In this document: one piece after another, positions 42,567-64,000 of the stretch
Layout of the letters: each line of letters starts with the position of its first letter
Position numbering within the stretch: the stretch's first letter is position 1
Assembly: GCF_001006005.1 (NCBI RefSeq)
Contig: NZ_CP011254.1
Span: 1,426,001 to 1,490,000 of the forward strand
Origin: Serratia fonticola
GTDB taxonomy: Bacteria; Pseudomonadota; Gammaproteobacteria; Enterobacterales; Enterobacteriaceae
DNA: 64,000 bases
Reading direction: 5' to 3'
The notes under the pieces: model-generated
What the model was told of the DNA's origin: nothing
What the model saw: the letters and a program-made list of their open reading frames with translations, nothing else
Databases searched by the model: none
Position numbers and translations under genes: made by a program

Positions 42567-44072
42567 ATGCTGCATTTGTTCACTGGCCTGGATTTCCATA
42601 CCGGCCTGATGTTAATTCTCGCATTGTTGTTCGTGCTGTTCTATGAGGCCATTAACGGCTTCCATGATACGGCCAATGCGGTCGCTACTGTAATTTACAC
42701 CCGTGCTATGCGCTCGCAACTTGCGGTCGTTATGGCTGGCCTGTTCAACTTTCTTGGCGTGATGCTCGGCGGTTTGAGTGTTGCCTACGCCATTGTGCAC
42801 CTGCTACCAACCGATCTGTTGTTGAACGTCAGTTCAGCACACGGGTTAGCCATGGTCTTCTCCATGTTGTTGGCGGCAATTATCTGGAACCTCGGTACCT
42901 GGTATCTTGGGTTACCGGCCTCCAGTTCCCACACCCTGATTGGCGCCATTATCGGTGTCGGCTTGACCAATGCGTTGGTGACCAACACCTCCGTGGTCGA
43001 CGCGCTGAACGTGCCAAAAATGATCAGCATCTTCCTGTCGTTAATCTTCTCCCCGTTGATCGGGATGATCATTGCCGGGCTGATGGTGTTTATGCTGCGC
43101 CGCTATTGGAGCAATACCAAAAAGCGTCAGCGTATTCATATGACTCCGGCGGAACGTGAGAAGGTCGATGGCAAACGTAAGCCACCGTTCTGGACGCGTA
43201 TCGCTCTGATCCTATCTGCTATCGGCGTAAGCTTCTCACACGGCGCGAACGACGGTCAGAAAGGTATCGGTCTGATTATGTTGGTGCTGATCGGTGTTGC
43301 TCCTGCAGGCTTCGTCCTCAACATGAGCGCGACCGGTTATGACATCACCCGTACCCGCGATGCCGTGAGCCACCTGCAGCAATTCTACCAAAAGCATGGC
43401 GATTCTCTGGCACATGTGGCCACACAGACGCCGTTGGTTCCTGCGCCTCAGAATGCGGCTCCAGCGCCTGATCAACCGGTTGAGTTCCACTGCGACAGCT
43501 CACGTGCCCTGATCGCCGTTGAGCGCTCTCTGGACCTGCTGAACAATCTGCAAAACTACGATCAGCTGACCGTAGAGCAGCGCAGCCATCTGCGCCGCCT
43601 GCTGATGTGCGTGACCGAGACTGCAGACAAGGTGGCCAAGCTGCCGGAAACCTCAGTGGAAGATCAACGCTTCCTGAAGAATCTGCGTTCAGACCTGTTG
43701 GAAACCGTTGAATATGCACCAACCTGGATTATCGTCGCGGTAGCCCTGGCGCTGTCTCTCGGTACCATGGTGGGCTGGCGACGCGTTGCTACCACTATCG
43801 GTGAGAAAATCGGTAAGAAAGGCATGACCTACGCTCAGGGGGTGTCGGCACAGATGACGGCCGCCCTGTCGATTGGCGTGGCCAGTTATACCGGTATGCC
43901 GGTTTCCACTACCCAAGTACTGTCTTCGGCGGTTGCCGGAACGATGCTGGTGGATGGCGGTGGCGTGCAGAGCAAAACCATCAAGAGCATCTTGTTGGCC
44001 TGGGTTCTGACCCTGCCAGTTTCGATTTTGCTTTCCGGTGGCCTGTATTGGCTGGCGCTGAAAGTAATTTGA
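42567..44072 (+). CDS. pitA: Low-affinity inorganic phosphate transporter PitA
   Basis: A 501-residue inner-membrane Pit-family symporter that takes up metal-phosphate with protons. The two inverted family signatures are visible: [20 protein letters not shown] (residues about 25-44) and [20 protein letters not shown] (near 226). A hydrophilic loop at about 270-375 separates the halves. The ORF opens at 42462, but ATG 42567 ([13 protein letters not shown]) matches E. coli PitA (499 residues). The 42263-42566 gap contains the divergent yhiN/pitA promoters, which I cannot place exactly. Confidence 0.96.
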
Positions 44073-54636: not shown

Positions 54637-55555
<919 letters not shown>

Positions 55556-55576
55556 CCTACGCCAGCATGGTAACGG

Positions 55577-55757
55577 CCCCTCACCCTAACCCTCTCCCAC
55601 AGGGAGAGGGGACAGAACGTGCTACAAATTAAGCCTTGCATACCACCTCACCAACGCCCATAAAGAAGGGTAATTGAGCAGCCCAACAATACACTCCATT
55701 CCCAATCGCAACACCGGACCAGCCCCCTCTCCCTGTGGGAGAGGGTTGGGGTGAGGG
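55577..55757. mobile_element. 181-bp MITE-like element between gatY and gatZ
   Basis: The left end (55577-55611) begins CCCCTCACCCTAACCCTCTC; the right end (55722-55757) is its inverted copy, ending GTTGGGGTGAGGGG, with about 34 of 35 positions matching. Each end also folds on itself (CCCTCTCCC/GGGAGAGGG). The roughly 110-bp interior is not coding. The structure fits a non-autonomous miniature element of the family seen at 1-45, 3550-3756 and 49.07-49.61 kb. No target duplication is obvious. Confidence 0.6.
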
Positions 55758-55920
55758 GCATCCTCTCGTCACAATAACCGCTTTCACTTTATTGCGTATA
55801 CCCATTCCTCTTTTTACCAACTATCTGTAATCAACTGATTTTAAATAACTAAAATCACCCCACTCGTTAACTTACTCCCTCACACTGAAAGCACCGGCGC
55901 GGAAAAATAGCGGTAAAGTT

Positions 55921-55990
55921 TTCGATCTTGATCACGAATAATAGAAAAGTGCATTGCTAACCTTTCGAAACATTACGATTATATTCGTAA
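55921..55990 (+). promoter_or_regulatory. Possible internal promoter region of gatZABCD
   Basis: TTCGATCTTGATCACG (55921-55936) resembles a CRP half-site pair. A perfect inverted repeat TTACGA-TTATAT-TCGTAA (55973-55990) and a TTTCGAAA sequence (about 55963-55970) lie just before the gatZ ribosome site. Together with the 450-base gap this suggests that gatZ-D has its own promoter, perhaps under GatR; this is inference. Confidence 0.4.
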
Positions 55991-56006
55991 GAAAACGGAG
56001 GGTAGA

Positions 56007-57308
56007 ATGAAAAATATAATCGCACGACATAAAGCAGGGGAGCCGATCGGGATCTGCTCTGTCTGTTCGGCACACCCATTAGTGATTGAAGCTGCATTAC
56101 GCCTGGATCTGCACAGCGATCGCCAGGTGCTGATCGAGGCCACATCCAACCAGGTTAATCAGTTTGGCGGTTACACCGGCATGAAACCGGCGGATTTCCG
56201 GCAGTTTGTCTGCGATATTGCGGCAACCGTCGGCTTCCCGCTCTCCCGGCTGCTGTTAGGGGGCGATCATCTAGGCCCAAACTGCTGGCAAAATGAACCC
56301 GCCGCCAGCGCAATGGCGAAAGCGGAAGTGTTGATCGCCGACTACGTCACCGCCGGATTCAGCAAGATCCATCTGGATGCGTCCATGTCCTGCGCCGACG
56401 ATCCGATCCCGTTAGATCCCCACGTGGTGGCAGAACGCGCCGCCCGCCTGTGTCAGGTCGCCGAACGGGTCGCTACCCCAGAGCAAAAACAACAGCTGAC
56501 CTATGTGATTGGGACCGAGGTGCCCGTTCCTGGAGGAGAATCTTCCGCCATTGGCAGCGTACATATCACTCACGCGACGGATGCCGCCGCCACGCTGGAA
56601 ACTCACTATCAGGCCTTCCGCAAGGCCGGGTTGGCAGAGGCGATCCCCAGGATCATCGCCGTGGTAGTGCAGCCAGGAGTGGAGTTCGACCACTCACAGG
56701 TGATCGCTTACCAACCACAGCTGGCCCGCGAGCTCTCCCAGTTTATTACCACCACGCCGCTGGTCTATGAGGCACACTCTACCGATTACCAAACGCGTGA
56801 AGCCTATCAGCAACTGGTGCGCGATCACTTCGCCATTCTCAAGGTTGGCCCGGCCCTGACGTTCGCCCTGCGCGAAGCGGTGTTTGCCCTGGCCAATATC
56901 GAACAGGCCCTGATTGCCCCGGAAAAACGTAGCCAGATCCTGGCGGTGATTGACGCCGTGATGCTCGACGAACCGGATTACTGGAAAAAGTATTACCACC
57001 CGACGTTCAGCCGCTCGCTAATCGACCTGCATTTCAGCCTCTCGGACCGTATCCGCTACTACTGGCCTCACCCGCGTATCGCCCAAAGTATGACGACGCT
57101 GCTCAATAACCTCGACCAGCAAGAAATCCCCGCGGGCCTGCTGAGCCAATACTTTCCGCTGCAATATCAGCGCGTGATGGAACGCAAGCTGGCGAAGCAG
57201 CCCCACGCACTGATGATCGACAAAATTCAGGATGTGCTGCGCGCTTATCGCTTCGGCTGTGCCCCCGCAGAGCAAGCCAAAAACGCCGAGGAGATGGTCC
57301 ATGCATAA
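56007..57308 (+). CDS. gatZ: Tagatose-bisphosphate aldolase non-catalytic subunit (GatZ/KbaZ)
   Basis: A 433-residue GatZ/KbaZ-family protein needed for full activity and stability of the GatY aldolase. It begins [20 protein letters not shown]; family marks include [18 protein letters not shown] (about 44-61), [14 protein letters not shown] (about 83-96) and [12 protein letters not shown] near 253. GGAGGG precedes the ATG. Its end overlaps gatA by 8 bases. Confidence 0.93.
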
Positions 57309-57798
57309 CAGCCAACTGTTCGTTCGCACTGGCATCAGCTTTGCCGACGCGCAGCAGGCGCTGGAGCACATTGGCGTCACCATGCTCAACGCCGGGGTTG
57401 TTCACAACAGCTACCCGCAGGCGTTGCTGGTGCGTGAGAGCGCTTATCCCACCGGCATCGCCCTTGAGCAGCACGCGGTCGCCATCCCCCATTGTGAAGC
57501 GGAGCATGCACGTGCCCCGGCTATTTATCTAATCCGCCCTGACCAGGCTGTGCCCTTCGCTCAGGCGGATGATGACGGCACGATCGACGTTGCGCTGATT
57601 ATCGCGCTGATCGTCACCGACCCGGCGGCGCAGTTGGTTTTACTGCGCACGCTGTTTGGCCAGTTGCAGCACCCCGAGTTTATCACTGCGCTACTGACCG
57701 CCCCCGAGGACCAACTGGGCGAAATGTTTGCCCAGCGGGTTTTCACTTCGCCCTCCCGACCACAACAAAAAACAGAATATGAAGGAGCCACACTGTGA
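57301..57798 (+). CDS. gatA: Galactitol PTS EIIA component
   Basis: A 165-residue fructose/mannitol-type EIIA domain. The phosphorylated histidine is in [19 protein letters not shown] near residue 64, the usual IPH motif. ATG 57301 overlaps gatZ by 8 bases; the longer ORF from 57232 lies inside gatZ and is rejected. gatB follows with overlapping GTGA. Confidence 0.93.
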
Positions 57799-58079
57799 AA
57801 CGTAAAATTATCGTTGCCTGCGGCGGTGCCGTTGCCACCTCGACCATGGCCGCAGAAGAGATCAAAGAGCTGTGCGCGGAGCACAACATCGAGCTGGATT
57901 TGGTGCAGTGCCGCGTGACCGAGATTGAAACCTATATGGACGATGCCGACCTGATCTGCACCACCGCCCGTGTCGACCGGCAGTTTGGCGATATCCCGTT
58001 GGTGCACGGCATGCCGTTTATTTCCGGCGTCGGCATTGATGCGCTGAAACAAAAAATACTGACCATTCTGACGGAGTAG
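57795..58079 (+). CDS. gatB: Galactitol PTS EIIB component
   Basis: A 94-residue EIIB domain. The phosphocysteine is Cys9 in [19 protein letters not shown]. It accepts phosphate from GatA and passes it to galactitol during transport by GatC. The start is GTG, overlapping the gatA stop (GTGA), with GAAGGAG seven bases upstream. Confidence 0.94.
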
Positions 58080-58082
58080 CCC

Positions 58083-59465
58083 ATGTTTACCGACATCATG
58101 CGTTACATCCTCGATCTCGGCCCTACGGTGATGCTGCCCATCGTGATCATCATCTTCTCGCTGATTTTAGGGATGAAATTAGGGGATTCATTTAAATCAG
58201 GCATTCATATCGGCATTGGCTTTGTCGGTATCGGGCTGGTTATCGGCCTGATGCTGGACTCGATCGGCCCGGCGGCGAAGTCGATGGCCGAGCAGTTCCA
58301 GATCAACCTGCACGTGGTGGATATCGGCTGGCCAGGCTCGTCGCCGATGACCTGGGCCTCGCAGATTGCCCTGATCGCCATCCCGGTAGCGATTGCGGTC
58401 AACATCGTGATGCTGCTGACGCGTATGACCCGCGTGGTTAACGTGGATATCTGGAACATCTGGCACATGACCTTTACCGGCGCCATGGTGCATCTGGCCA
58501 CCGGTTCATACTGGCTGGGCATGCTGGGCGTGGTGGTGCATGCCGCCTTCGTCTACAAGCTGGGGGACTGGTTCGCTAAAGATACCCGCGACTTCTTCGG
58601 GCTGGAAGGGATTGCCATCCCGCACGGCACCTCCGCCTATATGGGGCCGATCGCCGTACTGGTGGACACCATTATCGAGAAGATCCCCGGCCTGAACCGC
58701 ATTCACTTCAGCGCAGACGACGTACAGAAACGCTTTGGTCCGTTCGGCGAGCCGGTGACCGTCGGCTTTGTGATGGGGCTGATTATCGGTGCGCTGGCCG
58801 GTTATGACCTGAAGGGCATTCTGCAACTGGCGGTGAAAACCGCTGCCGTGATGCTGCTGATGCCGCGGGTGATCAAACCGATCATGGATGGCCTGACGCC
58901 CATCGCCAAGCATGCCCGTAAACGCCTGCAAGCACGCTTTGGTGGCCAGGAGTTCCTTATCGGCCTCGATCCGGCGCTGCTGCTGGGCCATACCGCCGTG
59001 GTCTCCGCCAGCCTGATCTTTATCCCGCTGACCATTCTGATCGCCGTCATCGTCCCAGGTAACCAGGTGCTGCCGTTTGGCGATCTGGCGACCATCGGCT
59101 TCTTTGTGGCCCTCGCCGTGGCGGTGCACCAAGGCAACCTGTTCCGCACGCTGATCTCGGGTTTTATCATCATGAGCATCACGCTGTGGATCGCCACCCA
59201 AACCATCGGGCTGCATACCCAACTGGCTGCCAATGCCGGTGCGCTGAAAGCGGGCGGAGTGGTGGCCTCGATGGACCAAGGCGGCTCACCGATCACCTAC
59301 CTGCTGATCCAACTGCTCACCTGGCAAAACGTGGTGGGTCTGGTGGTTATCGGCGTCATTTACGCCATCGGGGTGTTCCTCACCTGGCGCCGTGCCCGTC
59401 AATTTGCCCAGGCTGAAGCCTCCGCCAAGCAACAGGCAGCCCAAAGCCTCAACGCCATGTCCTAA
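58083..59465 (+). CDS. gatC: Galactitol PTS EIIC permease
   Basis: A 460-residue inner-membrane EIIC protein of the galactitol (Gat) family with about 9-12 membrane helices. GMKLGDSFKSGIHIGIGFVG (residues about 29-48), NIWHMTFTGAMVHLATGSYW near 125 and the VVASMDQGGSPITYLLIQ stretch near 396 are family features. It imports galactitol with phosphorylation to galactitol-1-phosphate. It begins three bases after gatB. Confidence 0.94.
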   Translation: MFTDIMRYILDLGPTVMLPIVIIIFSLILGMKLGDSFKSGIHIGIGFVGIGLVIGLMLDSIGPAAKSMAEQFQINLHVVDIGWPGSSPMTWASQIALIAIPVAIAVNIVMLLTRMTRVVNVDIWNIWHMTFTGAMVHLATGSYWLGMLGVVVHAAFVYKLGDWFAKDTRDFFGLEGIAIPHGTSAYMGPIAVLVDTIIEKIPGLNRIHFSADDVQKRFGPFGEPVTVGFVMGLIIGALAGYDLKGILQLAVKTAAVMLLMPRVIKPIMDGLTPIAKHARKRLQARFGGQEFLIGLDPALLLGHTAVVSASLIFIPLTILIAVIVPGNQVLPFGDLATIGFFVALAVAVHQGNLFRTLISGFIIMSITLWIATQTIGLHTQLAANAGALKAGGVVASMDQGGSPITYLLIQLLTWQNVVGLVVIGVIYAIGVFLTWRRARQFAQAEASAKQQAAQSLNAMS

Positions 59466-59522
59466 TCCTTCGGGGGAGCCCACCTCCCCCCTCAAAGTAT
59501 TTGCAAGGGAGCGAGCAGGTTC

Positions 59523-59580
59523 GACCCGATCTAACCCATTGATTATCCAAACGGGCGCAGCATGCAGCGCCCCTACGATG
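59523..59580. repeat. Dispersed GGGCGC/GCGCCC palindromic element (copy before gatD)
   Basis: TAACCCATTGATTATC, then AACGGGCGCAGCATGCAGCG and CCCCTACG. A near-identical copy is at 60733-60785; related forms lie at 5468-5496 and 40988-41030. The palindromic core folds as GGGCGC...GCGCCC. It falls inside the gat operon, between gatC and gatD. Confidence 0.75.
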
Positions 59581-59633
59581 TGAGTCTGTTGGGGAGTCAA
59601 CTCCTCCAATCTATCTTCTACGGAGTTCAAGTT

Positions 59634-60683
59634 ATGCAATCAGTCGTGATCCATACGGAGGGAGAAGTGCGCGTTGAAGAACGCCCCGCTCCTGCTATTG
59701 AGGCCGCCGATGAGGTGTTGGTTCGGGTGGCGTATTCCGGGCTATGCGGTTCAGATATCCCCCGCATCTTCGCCAAAGGCGCGCATTTCTACCCGATTAC
59801 CCTGGGGCATGAGTTCAGTGGCCGGGTCGTGACCTGCGGCGATCGGGTTACCGACCTGCAACAGCATGATGCCGTGGCCTGCGTCCCTTTGCTGCCGTGC
59901 TTTAACTGCCCGGAATGCCAGCGCCATTACTATTCGCTGTGCAAGCATTACCAGTTCGTCGGTTCACGCAGCCACGGCGGCAACGCCGAGTTTATCGTGG
60001 TCAAACGCGCCAATCTGGTGAAATTGCCTGCCAACGTCAGCTTGTTGCAGGGGGCGTTTATTGAGCCCATCACCGTCGGCCTGCATGCCATTCAGTTGGC
60101 TGGGGGCTGCCAAGGCAAAGAGGTGATCATCATTGGTGCCGGCACCATCGGCCAACTGGCGATCCAATGTGCCCGCGCGATGGGCGCACGCAGCGTCACG
60201 GCGATCGATATCAATGACGACCGGCTCAAGCTGGCACGGCAGATCGGTGCAGAAAACGCGTTTAACAGCGCGGAGCTTAGCCCCTCAGAGATAGCCGAAC
60301 GCTTGCAGGAAAGGCGCTTTGATCAGCTGATTCTGGAAACCGCTGGCACGCCACAAACGGTCGGGCTGGCATTGGATATCGCCGGGCCACGGGCACAAAT
60401 CGCGCTGGTGGGGACGCTGCATAAAGATCTGCATCTGTCTTACAGCACCTTTAGCCAGATCCTGCGTAAGGAGCTGACGCTGCTGGGCAGTTGGATGAAC
60501 TATTCAGCCCCGTGGCCAGGGGAAGAGTGGCAGCAGGCCATGAAGCTGTTCCAATCGGCAGATCTGGCTCTGGAGCCGTTGATTGCCAGCATCGATCGCC
60601 CGCAGCAATACGCCGCCAGCGTTGCAGCCCTGGCCGGTAAGCCGATGCAGGGAAAAATCATGCTCAAACTCTGCGAAGAGTGA
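59634..60683 (+). CDS. gatD: Galactitol-1-phosphate 5-dehydrogenase
   Basis: A 349-residue zinc-dependent medium-chain dehydrogenase that oxidises galactitol-1-phosphate to tagatose-6-phosphate with NAD+. The catalytic zinc Cys is in YSGLCGSDIPRIF near residue 38, His in ITLGHEFSG near 60, and the structural zinc cysteines in CFNCPECQRHYYSLCKHY near 91-108. The Rossmann motif is VIIIGAGTIGQLAIQCA near 165. ATG 59634 with CGGAG eight bases upstream matches E. coli GatD; the ORF from 59562 runs into the repeat and is rejected. Confidence 0.94.
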   Translation: MQSVVIHTEGEVRVEERPAPAIEAADEVLVRVAYSGLCGSDIPRIFAKGAHFYPITLGHEFSGRVVTCGDRVTDLQQHDAVACVPLLPCFNCPECQRHYYSLCKHYQFVGSRSHGGNAEFIVVKRANLVKLPANVSLLQGAFIEPITVGLHAIQLAGGCQGKEVIIIGAGTIGQLAIQCARAMGARSVTAIDINDDRLKLARQIGAENAFNSAELSPSEIAERLQERRFDQLILETAGTPQTVGLALDIAGPRAQIALVGTLHKDLHLSYSTFSQILRKELTLLGSWMNYSAPWPGEEWQQAMKLFQSADLALEPLIASIDRPQQYAASVAALAGKPMQGKIMLKLCEE

Positions 60684-60710
60684 CATCAAGCGGCAGAGTT
60701 GCTGAATTTG

Positions 60711-60785
60711 TAGGGGTGAACCTATTCGCCCCTACCTAACCCATTGATTATCTGAACGGGCGCAGCGTGCAGCGCCCCTACGAAG
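60711..60785. repeat. Dispersed palindromic element (copy between gatD and gatR)
   Basis: First a hairpin GTAGGGGTGAA/TTCGCCCCTAC (60711-60736, one G-U pair), then CCATTGATTATCTGAACGGG and CGCAGCGTGCAGCGCCCCTA, matching the copy before gatD at nearly every base. The rest of the 60684-60903 gap holds the presumed gatR promoter, including a CATTTCGATAGG sequence just before the ribosome site. Confidence 0.75.
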
Positions 60786-60903
60786 CAAGTCAGTTGCCTA
60801 ACTCAGCCATTATTTTGCCTCAAATCCCATCTCCTTGATCTTTATGCTCCCCTTTCATATCCCTTTCGCATAAAATAAAAGCAAAACATTTCGATAGGTC
60901 AGG

Positions 60904-61695
60904 ATGATGAACTCTTTTGAAAGACGAAACAAAATTGTCGACTTGGTTCAGCAGAACGGCAGCATCTTGGTCAGCGATCTTTCGAATTCCTTCGGAATTT
61001 CTGAAGTTACCATCCGCGCTGACCTGCGCCTGCTGGAAGAAAAAGGCCTGCTGATCCGCTTCCACGGCGGTGCTGCCAGGCCCGGCAGCCAGTTGGAGCA
61101 GGAGGCTGAGGCGCCGAAAACCACCGGTGAGGTCATCCTGGAGGAACGCTACCAACTGGCCAAAGACCCGAAAAAGCGCATTGCGTTAAAAGCGGCGGCC
61201 ATGGTCAATCCCGGCGATACGGTGATCCTCGACAGCGGCAGCACCACCATGCTGATCGCCGAAGAGCTGGTGAAGATGGGCAATATCACGGTGATCACCA
61301 ATAACCTGCCCGCCGCCTTTGCGCTTTCCGACAATAAAGACATCACGCTGGTACTGTGTGGTGGCACGCTGCGCCATAAGACGCGCTCCATGCACGGTTC
61401 CATCGCGGAACTCTCCTTACACGGCATTGCCGGTGACGTGATGTTCGTCGGGGCCGACGGGTTGGACGCCACCAACGGTATCACCACCTTTAATGAAGGC
61501 TACTCGATCAGCGGCGTGATGGCTCAGGCAGCCAAGCGCGTAGTCGCGGTGGTCGATTCCACCAAGTTCGGCCGCCGGGGGTTCAACCTGGTGCTGTCGA
61601 TGAGCCAGATCGACATGATCATTACCGATACCGGCATCAGCAGTGCCGATCGCCAAGCGCTCGATCGGGCAAAACCCGAACTGGTTATCGTGTAA
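60904..61695 (+). CDS. gatR: DeoR-family galactitol operon repressor GatR
   Basis: A 263-residue DeoR-family regulator. The N-terminal HTH includes ILVSDLSNSFGISEVTIRAD (residues about 22-41), with RFHGGAARPG following, and the C-terminal sensor has TVILDSGSTTMLIAEEL and VITNNLPAAFAL. It begins MMNSFERRNKIV as E. coli GatR does; either of two adjacent ATGs (60904, 60907) could start it. It probably senses a galactitol pathway phosphate and controls the gat genes through TTTCGA-type sites. Confidence 0.92.
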   Translation: MMNSFERRNKIVDLVQQNGSILVSDLSNSFGISEVTIRADLRLLEEKGLLIRFHGGAARPGSQLEQEAEAPKTTGEVILEERYQLAKDPKKRIALKAAAMVNPGDTVILDSGSTTMLIAEELVKMGNITVITNNLPAAFALSDNKDITLVLCGGTLRHKTRSMHGSIAELSLHGIAGDVMFVGADGLDATNGITTFNEGYSISGVMAQAAKRVVAVVDSTKFGRRGFNLVLSMSQIDMIITDTGISSADRQALDRAKPELVIV

Positions 61696-61818
61696 ACTCA
61701 ACCGGGCAGAGGATCAAGCCTCTGCCTATTACAGCCATCGACGCAATCTTTGCGACAACCCCCTGTCAGGCGTTAAACTCTTACCCTTCTCGAATCACAC
61801 AACTCATGGAAAACCCAG

Positions 61819-63171
61819 ATGACGAAACATTACGATTATCTAGCAATTGGCGGCGGCAGCGGCGGTATCGCATCGATCAACCGGGCAGCCATGTATGGCC
61901 AGAAATGCGCACTGATTGAAGCCAAAGAACTTGGCGGCACCTGCGTTAACGTGGGTTGTGTCCCGAAAAAAGTCATGTGGCATGCGGCGCAGATCGCCGA
62001 AGCCATTCACCAGTACGGCCCGGATTACGGCTTCGATACTACCGTCAACGCCTTTGACTGGAAACGTCTGATCGCCAACCGCACCGCCTACATCGATCGT
62101 ATTCATACTTCCTACGATAACGTGCTGGGTAAAAACAAGGTTGACGTGATCAAAGGTTTTGCCCGTTTTATTGACGCGCATACCGTAGAAGTTAACGGCG
62201 AGAAAATCACCGCCGACCATATTCTGATCGCGACCGGTGGCCGCCCGAGCCATCCGTCGATCCCAGGTGCCGAATACGGCATAGACTCCGACGGCTTCTT
62301 TGAGCTGGATGCCATGCCAAAACGCGTGGCAGTGGTAGGTGCTGGCTACATCGCGGTAGAAATTGCCGGTGTGATGAACGCGCTGGGAGCGGAAACGCAC
62401 CTGTTCGTGCGTAAACACGCCCCGCTGCGTACCTTCGATCCGATGATTGTTGAAACCCTGGTTGAGGTGATGAACACCGAAGGGCCAACCCTGCACACCG
62501 AATCCCTTCCAAAATCCATCGTCAAAAACGCCGACGGCAGCCTGACGCTGGCGTTGGAAAACGGCAAAGAGTTCACCGTGGACAGCCTGGTCTGGGCCAT
62601 CGGCCGCGAACCAGCGACCGATAATCTGAACCTGGCAGTGACCGGCGTGAAAACCAATGCCAAAGGTTACATCGAAGTCGACAAATTCCAGAACACCAAC
62701 GTGAAAGGCATCTACGCGGTAGGTGACAACACCGGTGCGGTTGAGCTGACCCCGGTTGCCGTCGCCGCTGGCCGTCGCCTGTCCGAGCGCCTGTTCAACA
62801 ACAAGCCGGACGAACATCTGGACTACAGCAACATCGCCACCGTGGTGTTCAGCCACCCGCCAATTGGCACCATTGGCCTGACCGAACCGCAGGCGAAGGA
62901 GCAGTTTGGCGAGGACAAAGTGAAGGTCTATAAATCGTCCTTCACCGCCATGTACAGCGCCGTAACTCAGCATCGCCAGCCGTGCCGCATGAAGCTGGTA
63001 TGTGTGGGTGAAGAAGAGAAGATCGTTGGCCTGCACGGGATTGGCTTTGGCATGGATGAAATCCTGCAGGGCTTTGCCGTGGCAATCAAGATGGGCGCGA
63101 CCAAGAAAGACTTCGACAACACCGTGGCGATCCACCCAACCGCAGCGGAAGAATTCGTGACTATGCGGTAA
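61819..63171 (+). CDS. gor: Glutathione-disulfide reductase
   Basis: A 450-residue FAD/NADPH disulfide reductase, the E. coli length. It reduces GSSG to GSH in the cytoplasm. The FAD motif is [18 protein letters not shown] (residues about 6-23), the redox pair is in [18 protein letters not shown] near 41-58, the NADPH motif [17 protein letters not shown] near 170, and the C-terminal active-site His/Glu in [15 protein letters not shown] at the end. Confidence 0.97.
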
Positions 63172-63190
63172 TAGTGCATTCCTAACTGTA

Positions 63191-63216
63191 AAACCGACTG
63201 TAAAAGGTCGGTTTTT
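63191..63216 (+). terminator. Rho-independent terminator of gor
   Basis: AACCGAC/GTCGGTT stem with an 8-base loop followed by T5, 20 bases after gor. Confidence 0.88.
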
Positions 63217-63387
63217 GCTTTTATTCAGCGTATAAATGCTGATTAAGGTAATTGAATATCCCCGTCATGGTGTTTATATCACTGCAAAATTATCGTTCAT
63301 TAAGATAAATCGTTCGTTTAAATATAACTTCTTAAATATCACCTCAACGAGGTGCCGATTTTCGAGCACAATCGCGCCCAGCACGCC

Positions 63388-63393
63388 TATAAT
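63388..63393 (+). promoter_or_regulatory. -10 box of the magnesium-riboswitch transcript
   Basis: A perfect TATAAT whose predicted transcription start (about 63400) falls just before the M-box aptamer. No good -35 is seen at 17 bases, which suggests an activator; I could not make a convincing PhoP box. Confidence 0.55.
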
Positions 63394-63404
63394 CACCGCG
63401 TAGT

Positions 63405-63600
63405 TATATGCAGTATCTCGTTTGGCGAGGCTCCTATACAAACACAGGTTACTGATCTGACGACATCGAGAGATGCCCAAGGTTAAGACAGGCTTTATCG
63501 GATTAAGGTTCAGCCCAAGGTAACTTCTGAACTGTTCTTCAGATACATTGTTCAGATACGTTGTATAGTGCTAAAACCTGGACGCGGAGATAGGCTTTCT
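63405..63600 (+). ncRNA. M-box (ykoK-type) magnesium riboswitch
   Basis: The sequence follows the M-box aptamer pattern: the conserved 5' segment GGCGAGGCTCCTATACAAAC (63424-63443), a middle block with CGACATCGAGAGATGCCCAA, and the conserved 3' segment TTGTATAGTGCTAAAACCTG. Pairings fit: P1 TATCTC (63414-63419) with GAGATA (63587-63592), and P2 CTATACAA (63434-63441) with TTGTATAG (63561-63568), both perfect. M-boxes bind Mg2+ and switch off Mg2+ transporter genes. About 260 bases of leader separate it from the next gene, enough for an expression platform. Confidence 0.85.
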
Positions 63601-63718
63601 GCACTCCCCCTCTTTGGTTTACTCCCCTATGCGATGCACTGTTGAAGTTTAAACAGCAATAGGGTCAATGACTTCCAGACTCCTCAGCGATGACCGCTAC
63701 CGCGCCAGCAACACAGGC

Positions 63719-63757
63719 GGGTCAGCCATTGCTAACTCTTTGAACGCTGACTTTTTC
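63719..63757 (+). terminator. Candidate regulated terminator in the M-box leader
   Basis: GTCAGC (63721-63726) can pair with GCTGAC (63746-63751) around a 19-base loop, followed by T5. It lies between the aptamer and the MgtS-like gene, where a riboswitch expression platform is expected. The large loop makes it moderate at best. It overlaps a 35-codon ORF (63668-63775) that follows AGGG. Confidence 0.4.
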
Positions 63758-63860
63758 TCCGCGCAGGTACCCTGACGGTGAATGAAGCCAGAGACTACGT
63801 TGCACACTTACTTTTAACCACAGAGGTCGTTATCGATTACAGTTAACCGAGGATAAAATT

Positions 63861-63953
63861 ATGGGAAATATGATGTTTTTTATGGGATTTTTGTTTTTCG
63901 TCAGCTCACTGGGGCTGATTGCAGCCTATCTGAGCACCAAATGGGATGACTAA
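63861..63953 (+). CDS. MgtS-like small membrane protein
   Basis: A 30-residue protein starting MGNMMFFMGFLFF, one membrane helix (about residues 5-24), and ending AAYLSTKWDD. E. coli MgtS (31 residues), which binds and stabilises the Mg2+ transporter MgtA, begins MLGNMNVFMA and ends AAYFSHKWDD, so the ends agree closely. GAGG lies eight bases before the ATG. It follows an M-box riboswitch, consistent with induction at low Mg2+. Its stop overlaps the next start (TAATG). Too short for most gene callers. Confidence 0.8.
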   Translation: MGNMMFFMGFLFFVSSLGLIAAYLSTKWDD

Positions 63954-64000
63954 TGAACGAAAAAGATCCGCCTAGCATCATCCTCCCCGTAGCCTCATCA
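63953..64000 (+). CDS. Start of a gene cut by the window end (possible Mg2+ transporter)
   Basis: An ATG overlapping the stop of the MgtS-like gene opens a frame that stays open for the remaining 16 codons (MNEKDPPSIILPVASS). The sequence is too short to identify. The M-box and the MgtS-like gene in front of it make a magnesium transporter such as an MgtA/MgtB-type P-ATPase the most likely product; that is inference from context. Confidence 0.55.
   Translation, partial: MNEKDPPSIILPVASS

Follow-up and report, generated by a model that had tools for sequence, protein, structure and literature searches.

The window, that is, the whole stretch of 64,000 nucleotides that was analyzed, belongs to a 6.0-Mb genome carried on a single contig. 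It ends with an M-box riboswitch aptamer, the remains of an mgtE gene, and mgtS. The features discussed below, with positions counted from the first letter of the window, were as follows.

42654-44036, + strand: pitA-type phosphate transporter (PF01384, 304.9 bits), the sole match in the genome
63332-63349, - strand: PhoP-box-like direct repeat, CGTTGA-GGTGA-TATTTA, matching the core at 8 of 10 bases; 38 nt upstream of the -10 hexamer
63388-63393, + strand: -10 hexamer TATAAT of the operon promoter; mostly TATAAT, TATACT, or TATATT-like in relatives
63410-63596, + strand: M-box (ykoK) Mg2+ riboswitch aptamer (RF00380, 139.4 bits, E = 3.1e-32)
63624-63664, + strand: expression platform hairpin, CCCCTAT...ATAGGG
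63668-63798, + strand: decayed mgtE 5' stump, with pieces in different frames and a deletion junction at about 63793-63798
63861-63953, + strand: mgtS, encoding a 30-aa membrane protein, MGNMMFFMGFLFFVSSLGLIAAYLSTKWDD
63953-64000, + strand, running on to 64024: TAATG-coupled 23-codon ORF

The upstream neighbor (ORF at 61819-63171), which we take to be a glutathione-reductase-type gene, was followed by a terminator-like hairpin at 63190-63215. Between the aptamer and the cation diffusion facilitator (CDF) gene that lies past the window end, the terminator scan flagged zero terminator-like sites on the + strand, and the promoter scan flagged zero sigma-70-type promoter-like sites; the promoter half was weak, because it also missed the operon's own TATAAT. 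A plasmid search with the window end returned two Proteus records, with 13% of the query matched.

A first-pass annotation, made from the letters alone, had proposed the TATAAT element, the M-box, and a 30-codon MgtS-like ORF, and all three were borne out. The hexamer was present at 63388-63393. In an Rfam search of 55000-64000, up to an E value of 1, the M-box was the sole match, and it spanned positions 1 to 169 of the 169-position model with a score far above the gathering score of 44. A second M-box was located at 5.87 Mb (115.9 bits), preceding another MgtE-type gene. The predicted MgtS protein matched the NCBIfam equivalog small_MgtS (NF033842) with 48.8 bits against a cut-off of 35 and fell just below the cut-off of the Pfam MgtS-like family (PF22865; 26.0 bits versus 27). 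The mgtS start lies about 195 nt beyond the platform and the lost mgtE start. A short ORF (about 11 to 18 codons, often ending in FIDN) was observed upstream of mgtS at six other loci (L007, L061, L064, L139, L140, and L201), and in the window its tail seems, partly by eye, to be fused to the mgtE stump.

The frame coupled to mgtS by TAATG (63951-63955) had been read as a truncated downstream gene. The coupling was found, but the frame stops 24 bases past the window end, and a truncated transporter was rejected on the grounds that it closes after 23 codons. Beyond this ORF lie a hydrophobic 60-aa membrane ORF, whose protein had four protein-database matches, with Serratia quinivorans as one source, and then an ORF encoding a 458-aa CDF protein. 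The latter contained a Cation_efflux domain (PF01545; 159 bits versus a cut-off of 26.6) plus three ZT_dimer stretches and matched the CDF superfamily model TIGR01297 with 224.8 bits (cut-off, 82.35). FieF was its best solved match (E = 4e-36), although the score against the FieF equivalog NF050169 (189.5 bits) was far below the cut-off of 420. The metal motif HxxxD/HxxxD of TM2 and TM5 was intact, with H45, D49, H154, and D158 invariant in all 11 sequences; this site is, we presume, typical of zinc-type CDFs and would suggest Zn2+-like ions. CDF transporters export divalent metals. The protein past 64000, which had been presumed to be the Mg2+ transporter that MgtS partners, thus belonged to a divalent-metal exporter family and to no known kind of Mg2+ importer, which partly contradicts that presumption. 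The four named relatives found for this CDF protein were all from Serratia, namely, S. silvae (97%), Serratia sp. H1w (90%), Serratia sp. Ag1 (83%), and S. plymuthica (74%). Farther downstream (L003, 2709-4412), a 567-aa membrane ORF was observed, and the opposite strand past the CDF gene (L003, 2709-10985) carried a fimbria-type cluster with 839-aa usher-like, chaperone-like, and small subunit-like ORFs (assigned by eye).

A hairpin was predicted immediately after mgtS at 63980-64018, with its left arm inside the TAATG-coupled ORF (-27 kcal/mol; 0 of 200 shuffles folded as well). Across 18 sequences, 7 of its 13 pairs changed on both sides and 92.3% of cells were paired, although the outermost pair failed in 9 of the 18 and related rows were not independent. 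The paired percentage and the covariation score were reached by 0 of 500 shuffles, and slid versions paired in at most 65% of cells. Membership in a repeat family was rejected (one exact site in the genome), as was an intrinsic terminator (no U-run). Since the hairpin was also found after mgtS at four loci without an adjoining CDF gene (L139, L140, L142, and L067), it belongs to the mgtS 3' end. Our guess is that it stabilizes the RNA or helps to process it and so sets how much MgtS is made relative to CDF.

The order M-box, mgtE, mgtS, hairpin, 60-aa gene, and CDF gene was found in Serratia plymuthica (L007), Serratia sp. Ag1 (L008), and several other genomes, and mgtE starts about 75 nt past the aptamer in relatives. 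Comparison of an mgtE-bearing relative (G298) with the window by BLAST gave two blocks, the first covering the leader and mgtE start (63587-63798; 78%, E = 7.6e-46) and the second covering post-mgtE sequence and mgtS (63793-63965; 87%, E = 3e-57), with about 945 bp of the G298 sequence between them missing from the window. Homology on both sides with the middle missing therefore indicates that mgtE of the window was deleted down to a decayed 5' stump. A congener (G078) had a stump with the same junction as the window, G295 had a stump of about 40 bases, and in G301 about 100 bases of the mgtE start were joined to about 40 bases of its 3' end (all by BLAST). G301 kept the 60-aa gene, with no CDF ORF listed within 2.2 kb. 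Neither mgtE nor a stump was found in G112, which kept the CDF gene and in which the 60-aa gene was not seen, or in G016, in which neither the CDF gene nor the 60-aa gene was seen; since no stump is left in these two genomes, mgtE loss is only presumed there. All six mgtE-less loci (that of the window genome, G000, and those of G078, G295, G301, G112, and G016) retained a full M-box, with 100.6 to 145.9 bits, and an mgtS above the cut-off. The aptamer, MgtS, the mgtE stump, and the downstream genes, along with their conservation, can be read from the sequence. The M-box-mgtS pair has survived three mgtE losses that left visible stumps (one shared by G000 and G078, one in G295, and one in G301).

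Loss of mgtE wherever a second M-box-mgtE copy exists was considered as a rule and does not hold throughout; it fits G000, G078, and G295 (all of genus g1) and G112, but in G301 mgtE was lost with no second M-box found, and G300 has both copies. Tandem M-boxes about 1.4 kb apart, each preceding its own mgtE paralogue, were observed in G017 (L085) and G163 (L090). In G090 (L053), an IS3-type transposase-like pair of two minus-strand ORFs (by eye) separates the M-box from mgtE and cuts the gene off from its riboswitch.

Of 295 sampled genomes of the family, 56 contained the M-box, 72 contained MgtS, and 10 contained the downstream CDF protein (E of 1e-60 or better). An M-box was located within 3 kb upstream of the CDF gene in 8 of these 10 genomes, and of the 72 genomes with MgtS, 9 had an M-box no farther than 2 kb from mgtS. 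For the other 63, no M-box match was listed near mgtS; contig breaks or strict filters could hide some. All genomes of two genera were covered more closely. M-box and mgtS occurred together in 6 of 7 genomes of genus g1 (neither in 1) and in 26 of 30 genomes of genus g26 (neither in 4), or together in 32 and neither in 5 of the 37 genomes pooled. The family-wide absences of M-box and MgtA are soft, because these searches scored only part of the first-look candidates.

In mgtE-bearing relatives, the aptamer was followed by CCCCUAU...CUGUU...AACAG...AUAGGG-A(C) and then the mgtE start, and the platform hairpin covers the mgtE Shine-Dalgarno sequence; this enterobacterial platform contains no U-run. 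The picture for these relatives would be an OFF switch that covers a Shine-Dalgarno sequence. An alternative fold was predicted in the window, where 63560-63568 pairs with 63627-63635, and in the aligned sequences it joins the aptamer 3' strand GUUGUAUAG with CUAUGCGAU and AAAACC with GGUUU. The platform stem was paired in 93.8% of cells across 36 sequences (slid registers, at most 57%), and the alternative fold in 91.5% (slid registers, at most 44%). These 36 rows (alignment A1) were drawn from 44 platform references; near-copies (L054, L066, L070, L076, L078, and L080) were omitted, as were L052 and L067, whose platforms look different and both of which would lower the paired percentage. Twenty loci of the other M-box-mgtE type (L083-L102) were excluded earlier and are outside the 44 references. 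Shuffles among sequences equaled the observed pairing in 81 of 500 trials for the platform stem and in 364 of 500 for the alternative fold, so that both folds are backed by conservation and not by covariation. The window leader folded no better than dinucleotide shuffles (z = -0.42).

The window retains the platform stem though the mgtE start is gone, and in G078 no start codon is left at the platform. In G112, bases capable of forming UAUCCCG/CGGGAUA replace the platform (by eye), and the local fold was no better than shuffles. In G016, CGACCCGC...GCGGGGCGG-TTTTTTT stands in place of the platform and resembles an intrinsic terminator. That it is one is a guess; the terminator scan did not list the stretch, and its folding did not exceed that of shuffles (z = 0.27 and 0.54). 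An excess of C over G after the aptamer, which would hint at Rho loading, failed to distinguish mgtE-less loci from those with mgtE.

The PhoP-box-like copy upstream of the promoter was weak alone (38 of 300 shuffles reached the same score) and was backed by its conserved position in relatives. One representative was taken for each genus and M-box type, with G257 treated separately from the rest of its genus, which gave 33. In 27 of these, and at 44 of 58 loci, the 150 nt preceding the aptamer contained a GTTTA-N6-GTTTA repeat that matched at 9 or more of the 10 bases. The loci behind these counts include 57 M-box loci (L048-L104) and the window. Among the 33 representatives, scrambled 5-mers gave 0 to 7, other periods gave 0 to 5, and TTTAG, which is the same repeat shifted by one base, gave 15. 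With 8 or more of 10 bases, the distance from a reverse-strand box to the -10 hexamer was 37 or 38 nt at 41 of 65 loci and 36 to 39 nt at 45 of 65, with 20 of 65 not fitting this spacing and the -10, chosen by a simple rule, doubtful in some. A box at 36 to 39 nt was found in 21 of the 33 representatives. When the upstream DNA was shuffled with the -10 kept (100 trials), such a box occurred at a mean of 0.38 and a maximum of 2 of 65 loci. The second repeat of the reversed box contained ATTTA at 33 of 65 loci. E. coli mgtS belongs to the PhoPQ regulon, and the contrast that the first-pass annotation had drawn between that regulation and riboswitch control here may be too sharp, with a PhoP-box-like repeat present upstream of many enterobacterial M-boxes, at a distance from the -10 known to be functional, and degenerate in the window. 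Excerpts of PMC3335776 give the PhoP box as (T/G)GTTTA-5 nt-(T/G)GTTTA, describe reversed boxes as functional when 27, 37, or 48 nt separate them from the -10, and report that reversed boxes carry TATTTA as their second repeat. A remark made in passing in PMC3207850 states that mgtE is not PhoPQ regulated in other bacteria. In our reading, both the riboswitch and PhoP, the latter at a predicted site, would act on the operon.

Taken together, we consider it likely (probability of about two-thirds) that the locus is a Serratia low-Mg2+ operon in which deletion of mgtE left the M-box directly before mgtS and the CDF gene, with two-tier control. Because mgtE was deleted and the next large gene apparently encodes a metal exporter, what the switch links to low Mg2+ is probably a response made up of a small protein and metal export, not the presumed partner importer. 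At low external Mg2+, PhoP would help to start transcription at the upstream box. When cytosolic Mg2+ is low, the aptamer would open, its 3' strand would pair with the platform, and the leader would stay open, upon which mgtS, the 60-aa protein, and the CDF protein would be made. When Mg2+ is high, closure of the platform hairpin CCCCUAU/AUAGGG would end the message early, and as the scan found no intrinsic terminator, Rho would be the most likely agent. As mgtS has its own start, the riboswitch control of mgtS that we infer must pass through the transcript, presumably by way of Rho or of untranslated-RNA decay. MgtS would act in trans, with MgtA-type pumps and PitA as its targets; the CDF protein would remove competing transition metals that enter when Mg2+ uptake is raised. 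An exporter under an Mg2+ OFF switch would be senseless as Mg2+ feedback, whereas export of competing metals at low Mg2+ makes sense. It weighs against the operon model that the platform, as predicted, covers the start of an mgtE that is now gone. In addition, the covarying hairpin might split the run by setting mgtS apart from the CDF gene.

A wider proposal, which we advance tentatively and at somewhat less than even odds, is that enterobacterial M-box operons in general are two-tier, with PhoP reading outside Mg2+ through a reverse box at 37 to 38 nt and a start-site-covering M-box reading inside Mg2+. To this, Serratia would add MgtS and the CDF protein, such that one signal would raise Mg2+ uptake, stop Mg2+ loss, and expel competing metals, and the MgtS arm, not the channel, would have been kept when mgtE was lost.

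Alternatively, the M-box and platform may be leftovers of mgtE control that no longer regulate anything of importance, with mgtS and the CDF gene transcribed from another start or constitutively. We regard this as unlikely, although several observations fit it: the start on which the platform acts was lost with mgtE (in G078, down to the start codon), and mgtS can live without an M-box, as in a congener of G016 (G162, locus L139) that has no M-box by Rfam and a similar promoter region. Retention of the M-box through the three losses with visible stumps, and at mgtE-less loci with scores far above the cut-off, argues against a relic, as does, given the weak scan, the lack of a flagged + strand promoter-like site between the aptamer and the CDF gene. 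Comparison of G000 with G078, both of which lack mgtE here, revealed 0 substitutions in 187 aptamer positions, versus 20 of 299 in upstream DNA (Fisher P = 6e-5) and 25 of 231 at CDF fourfold sites (10.8%; Fisher P = 2e-7). The mgtE stump was also slow to change (4 of 193), and because it was statistically as slow as the aptamer (P = 0.12), a locally low substitution rate could account for the invariance.

Simple feedback, in which the M-box senses another divalent metal and the CDF protein exports that same metal, would suit the divalent-metal export by CDF transporters. A cited title also mentions manganese-bound M-box structures, but the sign would be wrong, since the first-described M-box is an OFF switch (as related in excerpts of PMC12810186) and the metal would shut off its own exporter. 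The window aptamer was, moreover, nearly identical to those preceding mgtE, and we consider this feedback highly improbable.

The window genome has two or more genes for MgtA/MgtB-type ATPases (two lie at 2.43 and 5.42 Mb), and its PitA-type protein, of the family to which a known E. coli MgtS target belongs, is encoded 19 kb upstream of mgtS. E. coli MgtS stabilizes MgtA and inhibits PitA, according to excerpts of PMC10710835. With three candidates scored per genome, no MgtA/MgtB-type ATPase scored above the cut-off in 4 of the 72 MgtS genomes (G017, G105, G112, and G163), and G028, which is half complete, had only a partial MgtA match. These genomes suggest that MgtA may not be the sole MgtS partner everywhere. 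The proposal of the first-pass annotation that one riboswitch operon joins MgtS with MgtA, the importer that it protects, was right in that the M-box and MgtS are real, share one gene run with conserved linkage, and include a small protein whose E. coli counterpart stabilizes MgtA. It is nevertheless scarcely tenable and, as to the operon, refuted by the gene order: the next large gene is that for the CDF protein or mgtE, no MgtA gene was found here or in the relatives read, and the MgtA-type ATPases are encoded elsewhere. Moreover, G112 has the M-box, mgtS, and CDF gene, yet none of the 3 MgtA candidates scored there, out of 7 at first look, passed the cut-off. Contact between the MgtS and MgtA proteins in trans is possible.

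The riboswitch class, the small protein, and the transporter family are each known. Among the matches listed in the open-access literature, no title or opening of an abstract described an M-box that precedes mgtS or a CDF gene. The conserved place of MgtS in an M-box operon, in one case without a detected MgtA, offers an independent route to its function and partners, and an Mg2+ OFF switch over a CDF exporter suggests metal-ratio correction within the low-Mg2+ response.

Compared with known systems, the locus shares its aptamer family (RF00380) with the Bacillus subtilis ykoK/mgtE M-box, and the Mg2+ OFF logic before an MgtE-type gene recurs in the relatives. The B. subtilis M-box acts through an intrinsic terminator (PMC12810186, in part), whereas the enterobacterial platform lacks a U-run and covers a Shine-Dalgarno sequence, and mgtE, which follows the M-box in B. 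subtilis, is deleted here, with MgtS and the CDF protein encoded next. The mycobacterial pe20 operon, with a translational M-box, Rho termination, and a small ORF, is described in excerpts of PMC12810186 as the first of its kind. The likeness to pe20 lies in the translational platform, which is predicted here, the small ORF directly after it, and Rho-dependent termination, the last of which we only infer here; the small ORF of pe20 has no known role, whereas the one here is MgtS. Enterobacterial M-boxes would form a second group whose platform covers a start site, after the mycobacterial M-box reported in 2026. The MgtS protein resembles that of E. coli (31 aa) in its equivalog match, its size, and a C-terminal KWDD, but the E. 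coli control genome gave no M-box match, whereas mgtS here is in an M-box operon. The CDF protein shares the Cation_efflux and ZT_dimer domains with FieF/YiiP and ZnT and differs from FieF in its length of 458 aa, its three ZT_dimer stretches, and an HxxxD first metal site, which in FieF reads DxxxD. Salmonella mgtA follows the two-tier logic proposed here, with a PhoP box at the promoter and cytosolic Mg2+ read in the leader (excerpts of PMC3335776). In contrast to Salmonella mgtA, the leader here is a true M-box, the targets are MgtE, MgtS, and the CDF protein, and the predicted box is reversed and mostly sits 37 to 38 nt from the -10, a position that resembles that of pagK in the same source.
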